Shown here piece after piece: positions 13,569 to 27,631 of a DNA stretch of 36,213 bases. The DNA lies in NCBI GenBank assembly GCA_025451075.1, contig JANWLA010000029.1, positions 1-36,213 of the forward strand. The letters run 5' to 3'. Both the position numbers and the translations under genes were made by a program. The DNA is from Nitrosotalea sp. Its GTDB lineage: Archaea; Thermoproteota; Nitrososphaeria; Nitrososphaerales; Nitrosopumilaceae. The notes under the pieces were generated by a model. That model ran no database searches. It saw only the letters and a program-made list of their open reading frames with translations, and was not told the origin of the DNA. Each line of letters opens with the position of its first letter. The first letter of the stretch is position 1.

Positions 13569-14114
13569 TTATTTTCTTTTGATTGATAGAGTCTTTTGAA
13601 CTTCGTTTATGCTACTTAGGAATTTTTGTTTGGCTTCATACTCGTCTGTTACCTTGATGACTATCTCTGATGCCGAAAACATTACATCTTTCACAAGTAT
13701 TGGCGGGGAGAGTCCTAAAAGCTCGCCTAGTATTGCAAGTATGTTGTTAAAAGTTACATTATTTTTGTAGTGAAATGTGGTATTGCCTTCTGCAACCTTT
13801 GGGTTTGGCTCAAGTGGAATGACAAGTTCGTGAGACGTAAATTCTGTTATAAACAATGCAATGTCTTCTTTTACCTTTACCGTGAGTTCTTCTTTTTGTG
13901 TAACAAGCTTCTCCTTTGCCTTTTCCAAATCTGATGATGCATCATAGTAATCTTGACCAATCATTTTTGCAAATGTAGATTCAGTTGGACTCTTGAGTGG
14001 GATTTCATGAATTCTAAAATTTACTGTGGCAAGCTCATCTTCTGTATCTTTTAGTTGTGTTCTATTTTCTCTGATGCGGGTTGCAACCTGCTCTAGAAAG
14101 GCAAAGTCAGACAT
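13569..14114 (-). CDS. Coiled-coil protein paired with the tubulin-like GTPase
   Basis: A 181-residue soluble protein of no family I recognise. The N-terminal third (about 1-95) is strongly helical with heptad character, including VATRIRENRTQLKDTEDEL and a second stretch near LEKAKEKLVTQKEELTVK. The C-terminal part (about 110-181) is mixed alpha-beta (FNNILAILGELLGLSPPILV) and ends in a basic helix. The ATG at 14114 is two bases from the stop of the tubulin/FtsZ-like gene, so the two are almost certainly cotranscribed. A role as regulator, cross-linker or membrane adaptor of that GTPase is inference from position and coiled coil only. Confidence 0.75.
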   Translation of the reverse strand: MSDFAFLEQVATRIRENRTQLKDTEDELATVNFRIHEIPLKSPTESTFAKMIGQDYYDASSDLEKAKEKLVTQKEELTVKVKEDIALFITEFTSHELVIPLEPNPKVAEGNTTFHYKNNVTFNNILAILGELLGLSPPILVKDVMFSASEIVIKVTDEYEAKQKFLSSINEVQKTLSIKRK

Positions 14115-14116
14115 TT

Positions 14117-15505
14117 CTAGCTAAACTCATGGACTACGTCCATAAGACTTGCCTTGAATTCTTCAGTGGACAATCCCCACTTGCCATATTCATCTTTGAA
14201 TGCATCCCATGAAGCTTCTGCCTCACTTGCAATCTCCAAGATCTTTGGTCCAATTGCTTTTGTGTTGACAAGTACTGTGACGTTTGCTTGCTCGTTTTCT
14301 AATATTGGAATCTTGATGAAAATCATTCTTGCATCTTCAATGTGGAATCTGTCCTTTATCATGTTCTTTAGAATGTCTCTTTCCTTTGCTTCGAAATCTC
14401 CTTTTACCTTGACAAGTGCGCAACATGAATCCTTTGGACCGCCCTTGTCTCTAATGTCATTTTCATCAATATCAAACAATATACCATCTTCTTTTTTGTT
14501 GATGTGTTCTACTATTCCTTCCATGGTATTGTGCTTTGTACTTGTCATCAAGTCAGAGTTCCACTGTCTCTCCTCTGGAACAATTGGGATGACCCATGGA
14601 ACCGCAAATCTTGGTCTCTTTGTTGCAAGCCATGTTCTGTAGTTTGACATATCCCACTCCGTTTCTCTTGCAAAAGATGCAACAAACATAGACATTGCAT
14701 TTGCTGCAATCAGATTCATTCCTCTATAATCCTTCCAACCTACCTCGTGTTCCTTTGGAAGGTCGTCTATGATTGATGACATTTTCTCTAATCTCTTTTC
14801 ATGTTTCTGTGCTAACTCTCTTAGTCTTTTATTTGAAAATAGGATTGAACAGTCACTGTATTTTATCTGGTGTTCTAGATTCATCACGATATTGATGGCC
14901 GATGCCTCTAAAATTACTGGATCCCATCCAAACTCTGGCAATAATCCAAATGATGCAATTGTTGCATGCTCTTTTGTATCTTTTTTAATATATTGCATGA
15001 AGGCACTTGCAAATGAAGCGCCAGTACCGCCACCCATTGCAAATGGAATTACAAAACCTCTCACTGGTTCTGGGGAAAGACTAGCAAGTTGCTTTTGCAT
15101 GTCATATTTTGTACTTACCTCTTTGATGAATCTTGTACGACCCTCTGCCCAGTTTCTTGCAGCACCTCCTGCACCTGATATGACATGTTTGTCTCTTAGT
15201 GCAAATAGATCTGGATATGATTGTAATATCAAATTGGCAGCTCTTGGATCAAGATCAATCAAGAGCGCTCTTGGAATAAGTGGAATCTCATTTCCACCGT
15301 AGGCATTTGGAAATCGCAGAATTGTACTTCCATATCGCTTGAGTATACGGGATTCATCTTTTTCGCCCTTTAGTGTCGGTTTTAGGGGATCAGCGCCAAC
15401 ATCAAGTAATAATCTTCGATATGTCTCAGCACCAAGACCAATCCCACAATGGCCAAAACATGTCATGATAACTGGCGCTGGTGGTAATGGAGCAAACTTT
15501 GACAA
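14117..15505 (-). CDS. Divergent tubulin/FtsZ-superfamily GTPase
   Basis: A 462-residue protein with recognisable tubulin-superfamily nucleotide loops: T1 GHCGIGLGAE (18-27; tubulin GQCGNQIG), T2 LLIDLDPRA (81-89; tubulin VLVDLEP), T3 SGAGGAARNWAEG (110-122; tubulin GAGNNWAKG), T4 signature GGGTGAS (158-164) and T6 with N225 (ILFSNKRL). The catalytic T7 loop, NxDxxD in FtsZ, appears as EWDMSN (283-288), with the last acid replaced by Asn and the first Asn by Glu. The final Gly of GGGTGxG is Ser164. It therefore probably binds GTP but may hydrolyse it poorly. Length and loops T1-T4 look more tubulin- than FtsZ-like. Thaumarchaea are known to carry divergent FtsZ-like proteins beside Cdv division proteins, and a few carry artubulins; I cannot decide between these. 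The start is TTG 15505. Confidence 0.88.
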   Translation of the reverse strand: MSKFAPLPPAPVIMTCFGHCGIGLGAETYRRLLLDVGADPLKPTLKGEKDESRILKRYGSTILRFPNAYGGNEIPLIPRALLIDLDPRAANLILQSYPDLFALRDKHVISGAGGAARNWAEGRTRFIKEVSTKYDMQKQLASLSPEPVRGFVIPFAMGGGTGASFASAFMQYIKKDTKEHATIASFGLLPEFGWDPVILEASAINIVMNLEHQIKYSDCSILFSNKRLRELAQKHEKRLEKMSSIIDDLPKEHEVGWKDYRGMNLIAANAMSMFVASFARETEWDMSNYRTWLATKRPRFAVPWVIPIVPEERQWNSDLMTSTKHNTMEGIVEHINKKEDGILFDIDENDIRDKGGPKDSCCALVKVKGDFEAKERDILKNMIKDRFHIEDARMIFIKIPILENEQANVTVLVNTKAIGPKILEIASEAEASWDAFKDEYGKWGLSTEEFKASLMDVVHEFS

Positions 15506-15651: not shown

Positions 15652-15951
15652 TTATTCTTCTTCTGTCAGGGCTGCTTTGAGCACTCTGAACTCTTCAATT
15701 GAAATCTGTCCCTCTGCAAGTCTGACTCGAAGCAGTTCAAGTGATGTGTCTCTTTTGGGTTGTGGAGTAACCTGGGGTTGTTCTACATCTGTACTATTAG
15801 GTGACTCGAGCAAATTTTGGATATATCTATAATCTGACATTACAATGGGGTCGCCATTTTTTGCAGTCTCTATTATTTCTCGCAGTCTTTTTGGGTTTCC
15901 TCTGCCAGACGCAATGAGACCCTTGATTGTTTTTATCATGTCTTCTGACAT
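15652..15951 (-). CDS. SHOCT-domain protein with thaumarchaeal 'MSED' N-domain
   Basis: A 99-residue protein. The C-terminal 30 residues (SLELLRVRLAEGQISIEEFR, then VLKAAL) match the SHOCT helical-hairpin motif, usually an oligomerisation module. The N-terminal 50 residues (MSEDMIKTIKGLIASGRGNP, with KNG at about 32-34, then SDYRYIQNLLES) are clearly related to the N-terminus of the membrane protein at 26852-27631. The ATG at 15951 lies one base after the stop of the TPR gene, implying cotranscription. Function unknown. Confidence 0.78.
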   Translation of the reverse strand: MSEDMIKTIKGLIASGRGNPKRLREIIETAKNGDPIVMSDYRYIQNLLESPNSTDVEQPQVTPQPKRDTSLELLRVRLAEGQISIEEFRVLKAALTEEE

Positions 15952-15952
15952 T

Positions 15953-16762
15953 TTATTTCACTATTGTCTTAAATCTGGGATCCCCTTTTATCTTATCGAA
16001 TGAAGAATCCTTGACTGCCCATTTCTTTATGGTTCTACCGTAATGGGATATTGCCTGTGCAAGAAGAACGAGTGCATCATCATTTTGTCCAAGCAACGCC
16101 TTGCTTCGTGCCTTGGCATAAATTATCGTACCATTTTTTGGAAATTCTTTTAATATTTTATCAAAAATTGCAATTGCTTCCTCATGTCTTCCAAGCTCTG
16201 ATAGTTCAGTTGCCTTGTAAAATATTGCTTCATTATTTTCTGGCTCTTTTTCTAAAATTTTATCAAAGTATGACAGTGACTCTTCATGTTTTTTTTGCTT
16301 GCCAAGAACTAATCCCTTGTAGTATGTTGCCTGCATGTTTTCAGGTTCTTTATCAAGCACCTTATTCAAACAGTCTAGCGCGTCATCGTATTTTTCAAGT
16401 CGAATTGTGGTAATTCCCTTGTTGTACAGTGCGGGAATGTATCCTGTATCGTTTGATAGTGCCCTGTCATAATATGTGATTGCATTTTGGAATTGTTGCA
16501 ATTCTGCAAAATGGTTTCCTAAATTATTTAGTGCATCAACATGATCTGGGTCATGCTCAATTATTTTCTCAAAGCATGATACTGCGTCCTTATTTTTCTT
16601 TAGCTTCAATAGGGACATTCCTTTATTGTATAGTGCATCAATATTTTCTGGGTCTTGTTTTAGTGCCTTGTCAAAAAATGATATCGCATCCTTGTGCTTT
16701 TCAATCTTGGCATAGCTTATTCCCTCCAAAACTGTTTTTTCAGCCTGATCTTTTTTACTCAT
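15953..16762 (-). CDS. TPR-repeat protein
   Basis: A 269-residue protein made of about six tetratricopeptide repeats. Each has the spacing of the type ALYNKGMSLLKLKKNKDAVS and ALNNLGNHFAELQQFQNAIT, followed by FDKALKQDPEN-like turns. TPR solenoids bind protein partners; no enzyme domain is present. There is no signal peptide (starts MSKKDQAEKT), so it is cytoplasmic. The stop is one base from the start of the SHOCT protein gene, and the antiporter gene ends 76 bases upstream. A scaffold role with the SHOCT protein is inferred from the tight pairing. Confidence 0.88.
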   Translation of the reverse strand: MSKKDQAEKTVLEGISYAKIEKHKDAISFFDKALKQDPENIDALYNKGMSLLKLKKNKDAVSCFEKIIEHDPDHVDALNNLGNHFAELQQFQNAITYYDRALSNDTGYIPALYNKGITTIRLEKYDDALDCLNKVLDKEPENMQATYYKGLVLGKQKKHEESLSYFDKILEKEPENNEAIFYKATELSELGRHEEAIAIFDKILKEFPKNGTIIYAKARSKALLGQNDDALVLLAQAISHYGRTIKKWAVKDSSFDKIKGDPRFKTIVK

Positions 16763-26851: not shown

Positions 26852-27631
26852 TTATGGGTAGCAGTCAAATGTTCCAGGAGGTGGATTTTTTATCATATTC
26901 TGAAATTCTACTGCCGGATATTTCTTGTCTACTGCATATGGGATGAATCCAAAGATTGGAGCGTCTATAGAAGTTGTAATTGTTGCCTTGGTTGGATCAA
27001 ATGTGGAATTTTGTTGTCCTATCTTGGTTACCGCATCCTTGTTTATTGCAAATATTCCATCTAGTGTCACAGCTGATTTTGGAGATAATGTAGAGCCTCC
27101 CATAGTAGCTTTTTCTATGATATCTGTATTATAGAATGCATCAATCTCATACTTGGTAAATGTGGCAGGAAAATACGATGGATTGCACGCATCTGTCTGT
27201 ATGCTAAGCTCGGTATCTGAAATTGCTACCTGCTGGCCGTGATGAGGACGAAACTGTAAATTGTTTACTGCATAAACATCAAGCCCGATATAGGCTACAA
27301 TTATTATTGCAATTATGATTCCTGCTACCGCATATTTTTTTGGAGATCTTTTTGTGGGCTCTGCAACGGGTGTTTCTTGTGTTGGAGTATCTGGACTTGA
27401 CTCTGGAACTACATTATCAAAGACATTTTCTGGCTTGGAATCTGTGGGTGTATCATCTGAAGCTGGACTTGATTTAGGCTGGCTTTGTGTCAAACTCTCA
27501 ATGTATTGATGATCCTTAAAAGAGACTGGTTCACCGTTTTTGATTGCAGCCAAAACATTTTGTAATCTTCCAACATCACATCTCTCGGATCTTATCAATT
27601 CTTCAATTGTGCTGATAAGATCTTCTGACAT
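26852..27631 (-). CDS. Membrane-anchored protein: 'MSED' N-domain plus LEA-like extracellular domain
   Basis: The 259-residue product has three parts. The N-terminal cytoplasmic domain (about 1-50) is related to the SHOCT protein at 15652, sharing MSED, TI..LI, RL, KNG.P and D..YI. A Pro/Ser/Thr-rich linker (about 50-98) follows, then a membrane helix (about 100-120). The extracellular domain (about 130-250) resembles an LEA14/WHy beta-sandwich (VAISDTELSIQTDACNPSYF, then LSPKSAVTLDGIFAIN). It ends in a cysteine pair partner (FDCYP) that may bond with C152 of DACNP. It would link a cytoplasmic module to the exterior. The LEA assignment is moderate only. Confidence 0.75.
   Translation of the reverse strand: MSEDLISTIEELIRSERCDVGRLQNVLAAIKNGEPVSFKDHQYIESLTQSQPKSSPASDDTPTDSKPENVFDNVVPESSPDTPTQETPVAEPTKRSPKKYAVAGIIIAIIIVAYIGLDVYAVNNLQFRPHHGQQVAISDTELSIQTDACNPSYFPATFTKYEIDAFYNTDIIEKATMGGSTLSPKSAVTLDGIFAINKDAVTKIGQQNSTFDPTKATITTSIDAPIFGFIPYAVDKKYPAVEFQNMIKNPPPGTFDCYP

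Follow-up and report, generated by a model that had tools for sequence, protein, structure and literature searches.

What does a tubulin-like GTPase do in an ammonia-oxidising archaeon when its catalytic loop departs from the usual motif, and does the small gene lying two bases away belong to the same system? The question is raised by a locus from a Nitrosotalea species, carried on a stretch of 36,213 nucleotides (GenBank assembly GCA_025451075.1, contig JANWLA010000029.1, positions 1 to 36,213) that we call the window. On its minus strand, an open reading frame (ORF) with a TTG start codes for a 462-residue GTP-binding protein of the tubulin superfamily (14117..15505). It is followed, after a two-base spacer (14115..14116), by an ORF with an ATG start that codes for a 181-residue protein (13569..14114), just as an original prediction made from the sequence had placed the two genes. 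Our analysis reveals that the GTPase is an artubulin, and that the presence, duplication and loss of its gene run together with those of its small neighbour. The genetic link between the two genes is strong. On the basis of these sequence comparisons, we favour with somewhat better than even confidence a model of a two-gene tubulin system, in which a partner carrying a helical hairpin would control or anchor artubulin assembly.

Artubulins are a known family, and the Nitrosotalea protein is a member found in another genus. The family was described from Nitrosarchaeum by Yutin and Koonin in 2012 (PMC3349469; this and the other papers are cited from excerpts of their text), and the genome paper for Nitrosotenuis uzonensis notes an artubulin that shares approximately 79% identity with its homologues from Nitrosoarchaeum (PMC3835317). 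Loci from records titled Nitrosotenuis and Nitrosarchaeum, on which our comparison is based, encode proteins with 73–80% identity to the window protein; the 73% value comes from a protein truncated at the edge of its contig. The protein of Candidatus Nitrosotalea devanaterra (L087) is 98% identical. Thus, the original description of a divergent GTPase is correct as to the tubulin superfamily, but the protein belongs to a family that already has a name (PMC3349469, PMC3835317).

Several lines of evidence place the protein nearer to tubulin than to FtsZ, which had also been predicted. Residues 13–232 score 62.6 bits for the Pfam Tubulin family (PF00091), for which the cut-off is 33. The closest PDB sequences among the matches listed are the Asgard tubulins AtubA and AtubB, then OdinTubulin and gamma-tubulin, and FtsZ was not found among the 60 best PDB matches of either the single-sequence or the profile search. 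A profile made from 41 artubulin sequences scores 81 bits for the best Asgard tubulin chain among the PDB matches listed, and at most 8.2 bits for any of 24 FtsZ or FtsZ-like proteins from the order. A tree comparing 13 artubulins with 24 further members of the superfamily from the order (seven FtsZ, 11 FtsZ-like, five of a third kind and a single one) splits off the artubulins at 100/100, with a program warning of long branches elsewhere. This tree includes neither eukaryotic nor Asgard sequences and so has no bearing on the origin of tubulin; a 2026 study notes that the placement of artubulin was never fully resolved (PMC13394414).

The predicted structure (mean predicted local distance difference test score, pLDDT, of 77.9) is consistent with this assignment. 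Among the 50 matches listed, residues 10–462 align to tubulins with Z values of 34–35 over 385–400 residues and root-mean-square deviations of 3.0–3.5. A Foldseek search likewise returns tubulins over the whole length, with E values from 1.8e-21 among the 50 matches listed. The last two helices of the model (416–442 and 447–461) fall inside the tubulin-aligned range, and the protein models as a full tubulin fold that includes both the GTPase domain and the C-terminal domain.

That this gene is simply an ordinary or decaying FtsZ is exceedingly improbable and is already contradicted by the present evidence. The two proteins do share a superfamily, and a further gene in the window's genome codes for an FtsZ-like protein whose glycine loop departs from the norm. 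Against this, the profile scores and the tree set artubulin apart from both the FtsZ and the FtsZ-like proteins of the order, all seven true FtsZ proteins of the order retain an intact NxDxxD motif that artubulin lacks, and dN of the artubulin gene lies far below dS. The 50 fold matches listed are all tubulins as well, where the absence of FtsZ among the best 50 is no proof by itself. Given the profile scores, the tree and the motif, we reject an FtsZ identity.

The GTP-binding loops read as originally claimed, including GHCGIGLG (the T1 nucleotide loop, residues 18–25, 15431..15454), LIDLDP and the tubulin signature or T4 loop GGGTGAS (residues 158–164, 15014..15034), which ends in Ser. The translation also contains GAGGAARNWAEG and, at residues 283–288, EWDMSN. 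Residue N225 (14831..14833) is invariant in sets of 13 and 41 sequences, and we take it to be the base-contacting Asn of the superfamily. All of these elements lie on the minus strand. Between the window and N. devanaterra, the GTPase gene shows nonsynonymous and synonymous substitution rates (dN/dS) of 0.009/0.54 and the neighbouring gene rates of 0.022/0.48, which argues that both are real genes under purifying selection. The artubulin gene was found in single copy in a search of its own genome, for which the assembly is 1.66 Mb and 85% complete.

The neighbouring protein was originally described as a coiled-coil protein of no known family. The lack of a family is borne out, and the coiled coil is only part of the protein. 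The predicted model (mean pLDDT of 90.5) has two long helices (residues 4–51 and 60–92) that are predicted to form a hairpin (residues 4–92, 13839..14105, minus strand), followed by a small alpha/beta domain (residues 97–181, 13572..13826, minus strand). No Pfam match was found at E≤1, and no Pfam or NCBIfam family scores above its cut-off. When 18 relatives were compared to Pfam, only scattered weak matches were found, with each listed family in no more than two of the 18 (the best being ZapB, E of 0.001, in two). Sequence matches in the PDB are coiled-coil-like only, the best being a designed coiled coil (E of 0.0006), and these look like chance matches among coiled coils. The full-length model has no Foldseek match at E≤0.001. 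The hits from a second structure search (VIA) mostly cover the hairpin (residues 1–99) and represent common hairpins such as the arm of seryl-tRNA synthetase.

Two specific identities were rejected. The order of strands and helices in the C-terminal domain suggested Pcc1 of the KEOPS complex, but hhalign gives a probability of 0.1% against 19 Pcc1 proteins, and the window's genome has two separate Pcc1 genes. Likewise, the FtsZ anchor SepF is matched with a probability of only 0.2–0.3% when compared to SepF from 20 loci of the order; SepF occurs as a separate gene in 57 of 61 genomes, the window's draft genome not being among those. As far as the available text of the literature on artubulin, on thaumarchaeal FtsZ and tubulin and on archaeal coiled-coil operons extends, we found no description of this gene as an artubulin companion.

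One argument for a functional connection is the constancy of the pair. Among 80 contig loci (the best 80 of 85 found, with the start of the partner gene placed by profile), 76 carry the partner gene directly downstream of artubulin, on the same strand and at a distance of 2–18 bases. In the remaining four (L122, L136, L145 and L165) the contig ends in or just past artubulin. The two genes also adjoin in all 14 loci picked from a genome search. A sample of 300 genomes of the class gave 68 artubulin matches, of which two (G151 and G192) were dropped as weak matches to FtsZ-like proteins of approximately 900 residues. The remaining 66 genomes hold clear artubulin orthologues, and each also holds the partner gene, with no case of artubulin alone. 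In three of these (G226, G283 and G294) the genes reside on separate contigs, and G226 looks like a record of the same locus as L122, whose contig ends there. Flanking genes vary between genera while the pair stays constant, so the predicted conservation of the pair across genomes holds.

Named carriers of the pair include Nitrosotalea devanaterra and Nitrosotenuis chungbukensis, both of which have been grown in culture. Outside the order, artubulin was not found among 398 genomes of the phylum, a thin sample with 23 matches from which the artubulin-bearing genomes of families f4, f5 and f9 in the class sample are absent, apparently because they were not drawn. Artubulin operons also occur in records titled 'Gammaproteobacteria bacterium BBSC-SA02' (L119) and 'bacterium isolate clean1925' (L147), which are probably mislabelled or contain mixed archaeal sequence.

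The two genes are also gained and lost together. One genome (G112) holds two artubulin genes, and a partner gene accompanies each of them; a second two-copy case is seen in a single assembly in which both loci (L132 and L134) carry the partner. Conversely, G087, a genome from the same genus as the window that is 99% complete, yields no artubulin match and, in the corresponding place below a gene for a TPR protein, retains only partner residues 140–179. Similarly, G108 from the phylum sample retains a partner remnant of 42 residues and no artubulin. Such events are few, related genomes within an order cannot be counted as independent, and the two-copy cases come from draft assemblies in which mixed strains are possible.

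Several observations count against a partner devoted to artubulin. A partner match without artubulin is present in 28 of the 300 class genomes, comprising 20 from family f3, five from f2, two from f9 and the remnant in G087. The names of f2 (Nitrosocaldaceae) and f3 (Nitrososphaeraceae) are inferred and probable. In the f9 cases, the gene is either broken by stop codons (G196) or located at a contig end (G259). The f3 relatives, in both loci inspected (L077 and L078), are short and lack the hairpin, keeping the alpha/beta portion, and they reside near genes for EMG1/Nep1 and Rpr2 (L077) or for a dual-specificity phosphatase (L078). The two f2 relatives inspected (L075 and L076) are full-length, include the hairpin and adjoin a Radical_SAM gene. 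Because relatives occur in genomes without artubulin, the protein has some role there apart from artubulin, and its alpha/beta domain leads an existence of its own. Furthermore, in two genomes of genus g7 (G120, locus L067, and G221, locus L068) artubulin is truncated to a C-terminal portion of approximately 168 or 234 residues, and the partner gene downstream is intact. This could reflect decay, or the partner could need only the C-terminal part of artubulin. The original term 'dedicated' adaptor could therefore apply only in the lineages that bear artubulin, given the genomes where relatives of the partner exist without it.

These same findings feed an alternative in which the order already had the partner as a protein independent of artubulin and older than it, and the two are linked by nothing more than co-transcription. 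The relatives beside other genes in f2 and f3, and the intact partner next to truncated artubulins in G120 and G221, would fit such hitchhiking. It does not easily account for a pair that stays constant while its flanks change between genera, for the lack of any artubulin without the partner among the 66 genomes, or for the joint duplication in G112 and the joint loss in G087. We therefore judge hitchhiking to be unlikely, and hold a physical partnership of the two proteins to be moderately probable on the strength of the comparative data.

A second reason for interest in this system is the T7 loop, which in the superfamily reaches the nucleotide bound by the neighbouring subunit. HMMER aligns E283-W-D285-M-S-N288 of artubulin (14642..14659, minus strand) to NMDLME of OdinTubulin, such that NxDxx(D/E) appears to be replaced by ExDxxN. 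The Asn and the catalytic Glu positions would thus be exchanged in kind, with the middle Asp kept. The sequence TEWDMSN is present in 86 of 87 distinct artubulins, the lone exception reading WDMSS, and NxDxx(D/E) was not found anywhere in any of the 87. This count covers the 87 of 90 distinct matches that reach across the loop. The 80 contig loci were retrieved with two peptides, one of which overlaps the motif, and that set is biased towards it. Among genome-search loci fetched without the T7 peptide, which lean to near relatives, 45 of 46 carry TEWDMSN. Because the motif is so nearly invariant, ExDxxN is a conserved trait and not decay. The departure from NxDxxD that had been predicted is accordingly real, and neither an intact motif elsewhere in the protein nor a grouping with FtsZ was found.

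Other results temper this interpretation of the loop. An alignment with FtsZ made by MAFFT sets NxDxx two residues further along than the pairing of HMMER with OdinTubulin, and residues 282–285 have low confidence in the artubulin model; the exact register is not certain for these two reasons. In addition, D285 is invariant in the 41-sequence alignment and is likely the counterpart of FtsZ D210, the first Asp of the T7 motif, which positions the attacking water (PMC8936486). Its retention argues against a GTPase-dead protein. Loss of hydrolysis cannot be assumed, and calling artubulin dead is not warranted by the sequence. With D285 kept and N288 at the place of the Glu, hydrolysis may be slowed, altered or dependent on the partner.

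The stable GTP-bound filament that was originally envisioned is possible. A stricter version of this idea is that artubulin binds but does not hydrolyse GTP, and forms a mostly non-dynamic scaffold, with ExDxxN giving rise either to filaments that hold GTP permanently or to a stable artubulin–partner complex. N288 would occupy the position of the catalytic E254 of alpha-tubulin, at which a Lys in beta-tubulin blocks hydrolysis (PMC13394414), and the near invariance of the motif is consistent with this idea. An invariant D285 corresponding to the water-positioning Asp of FtsZ (PMC8936486) points the other way, and E283 could act as a substitute. We consider such a scaffold only tentatively, as a possibility well short of even. 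It overlaps with the two-gene model, and the two are not mutually exclusive.

In our two-gene model, the locus would be an operon for artubulin in an ammonia-oxidising archaeon of the Nitrosotalea type. The fold suggests that artubulin most likely assembles head to tail as other tubulins do. Because ExDxxN replaces NxDxx(D/E) in the loop that would contact the adjacent nucleotide, GTP hydrolysis from subunit to subunit is probably slowed or differently regulated. The constant operon, together with co-duplication and co-loss, suggests that the most likely role of the partner is to bind artubulin and to control or anchor the assembly of that protein. Stathmin-like or cofactor-like proteins that control tubulin provide an analogy for such a role. 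A bolder form of the model is a two-component machine, in which the charge-swapped loop (ExDxxN for NxDxxE) blocks the usual completion of the active site and the partner sets hydrolysis, nucleation or capping. We consider this version doubtful.

The only partner that we have seen proposed for artubulin, in the text available to us, is ESCRT-III. Yutin and Koonin predicted that the two cooperate, since a Snf7 gene adjoins artubulin in Nitrosarchaeum (PMC3349469), and the corresponding function would be in cell division together with CdvB/Snf7. Consistent with this proposal, a Snf7 neighbour is present in seven of the 80 loci (L129–L135; phmmer with two CdvB queries, E≤0.001), and the neighbour in L063 and L130 passes the Pfam Snf7 cut-off. 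However, no Snf7 neighbour was found in the other 73 loci or in the window by phmmer at this threshold, which a very distant paralogue could escape; 74 of the 80 loci hold at least 1 kb upstream of artubulin. The artubulin of N. uzonensis also lacks a Snf7 neighbour (PMC3835317). Moreover, genes for SepF and Snf7 are both present in G087, which has no artubulin, and at least 13 genomes of genus g7 in the class sample lack artubulin. Cooperation with ESCRT-III is consequently a rather improbable account of artubulin function. Because Snf7 adjoins artubulin in so few loci, is missing from the window and is absent beside the N. uzonensis gene, it is not a defining feature; the neighbour that stays constant is the gene for the coiled-coil protein. 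That archaeal tubulin-like genes in general have coiled-coil genes in their vicinity was noted in a 2023 survey, which in the text available names only Snf7 for artubulin (PMC9871819).

Two genes upstream of artubulin on the same strand have narrower distributions. A SHOCT-like gene coding for 99 residues (15652..15951), with a Pfam match below cut-off, is found in 36 of the 80 loci, and a gene for a TPR protein (15953..16762) is found in 33. Both are confined to Nitrosotalea and near relatives. The TPR gene was considered as a partner resembling BtubC, but this is not supported because the gene persists in G087 after the loss of artubulin. Elsewhere in the window, an ORF at 26852–27631 includes a stretch similar to the SHOCT-like gene.

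Other tubulin-superfamily genes of the order were encountered in the course of this analysis. The FtsZ-like protein of the window's genome (L166, G000:C61) has the departed glycine loop ANLAGKSGAAL. The FtsZ-like gene (L166, L175 and others) adjoins a methylthiotransferase-like gene, labelled by eye, and does likewise in several families. A second tubulin-superfamily pair is present in other families of the order (L181–L184, from G282, G166, G151 and G192), where proteins of approximately 430–460 and 900 residues are encoded a few kb apart. In L183, both paired proteins match Pfam Tubulin and Tubulin_2. These four loci also include a gene for a secreted-looking protein of approximately 313 residues and, in three of the four, a gene for a membrane-protein-like product of approximately 790 residues (labels again by eye).

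If the bolder form of the two-gene model is correct, a second, co-encoded protein that is not itself a tubulin would govern the switching of artubulin, whose lineage has been proposed to branch close to the root of the eukaryotic tubulins. Since 2012, artubulins have been mentioned as possible kin of the tubulin ancestor of eukaryotes, and we found no experiment on any artubulin in the accessible text of the literature on them. ESCRT-III, the partner proposed previously, rested on a gene neighbourhood that now proves to be rare. What is new is the companion gene, which by its constancy provides a specific candidate for a protein acting together with artubulin, and the near invariance of the ExDxxN loop. 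These findings make the function of artubulin directly testable by assays of binding, and of polymerisation and GTPase activity with and without the partner.

Comparison with known systems helps to define what is distinctive here. The artubulins of Nitrosarchaeum and Nitrosotenuis belong to the same thaumarchaeal family and are likewise nearer to eukaryotic tubulin than to FtsZ (PMC3349469, PMC3835317), whereas the window represents Nitrosotalea and has no Snf7 neighbour. Neither the downstream partner nor the ExDxxN loop was found discussed in the available portions of the 2012, 2013, 2023 and 2026 artubulin papers. FtsZ and the thaumarchaeal FtsZ-like proteins share the superfamily and the GTP-binding loops with artubulin but form a separate clade, score no higher than the 8.2 bits given above against the artubulin profile and, in FtsZ, retain NxDxxD. 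FtsZ is also not known to have the C-terminal helices of tubulin. The Asgard proteins AtubA, AtubB and OdinTubulin are the best PDB sequence matches and share the tubulin fold over the whole length. OdinTubulin, too, has coiled-coil neighbour genes (PMC9871819), but its T7 loop is NMDLME, unlike the EWDMSN of artubulin. AtubA and AtubB are both tubulins and are encoded in tandem (PMC13394414); in the pair from the window, by contrast, the second gene does not code for a tubulin. Finally, bacterial BtubA and BtubB resemble artubulin in having a prokaryotic tubulin fold, and their TPR gene (bacterial kinesin light chain) invites comparison with the TPR gene near artubulin (PMC3349469). Unlike in the Btub system, the TPR gene near artubulin is conserved only in near relatives and outlives artubulin itself.

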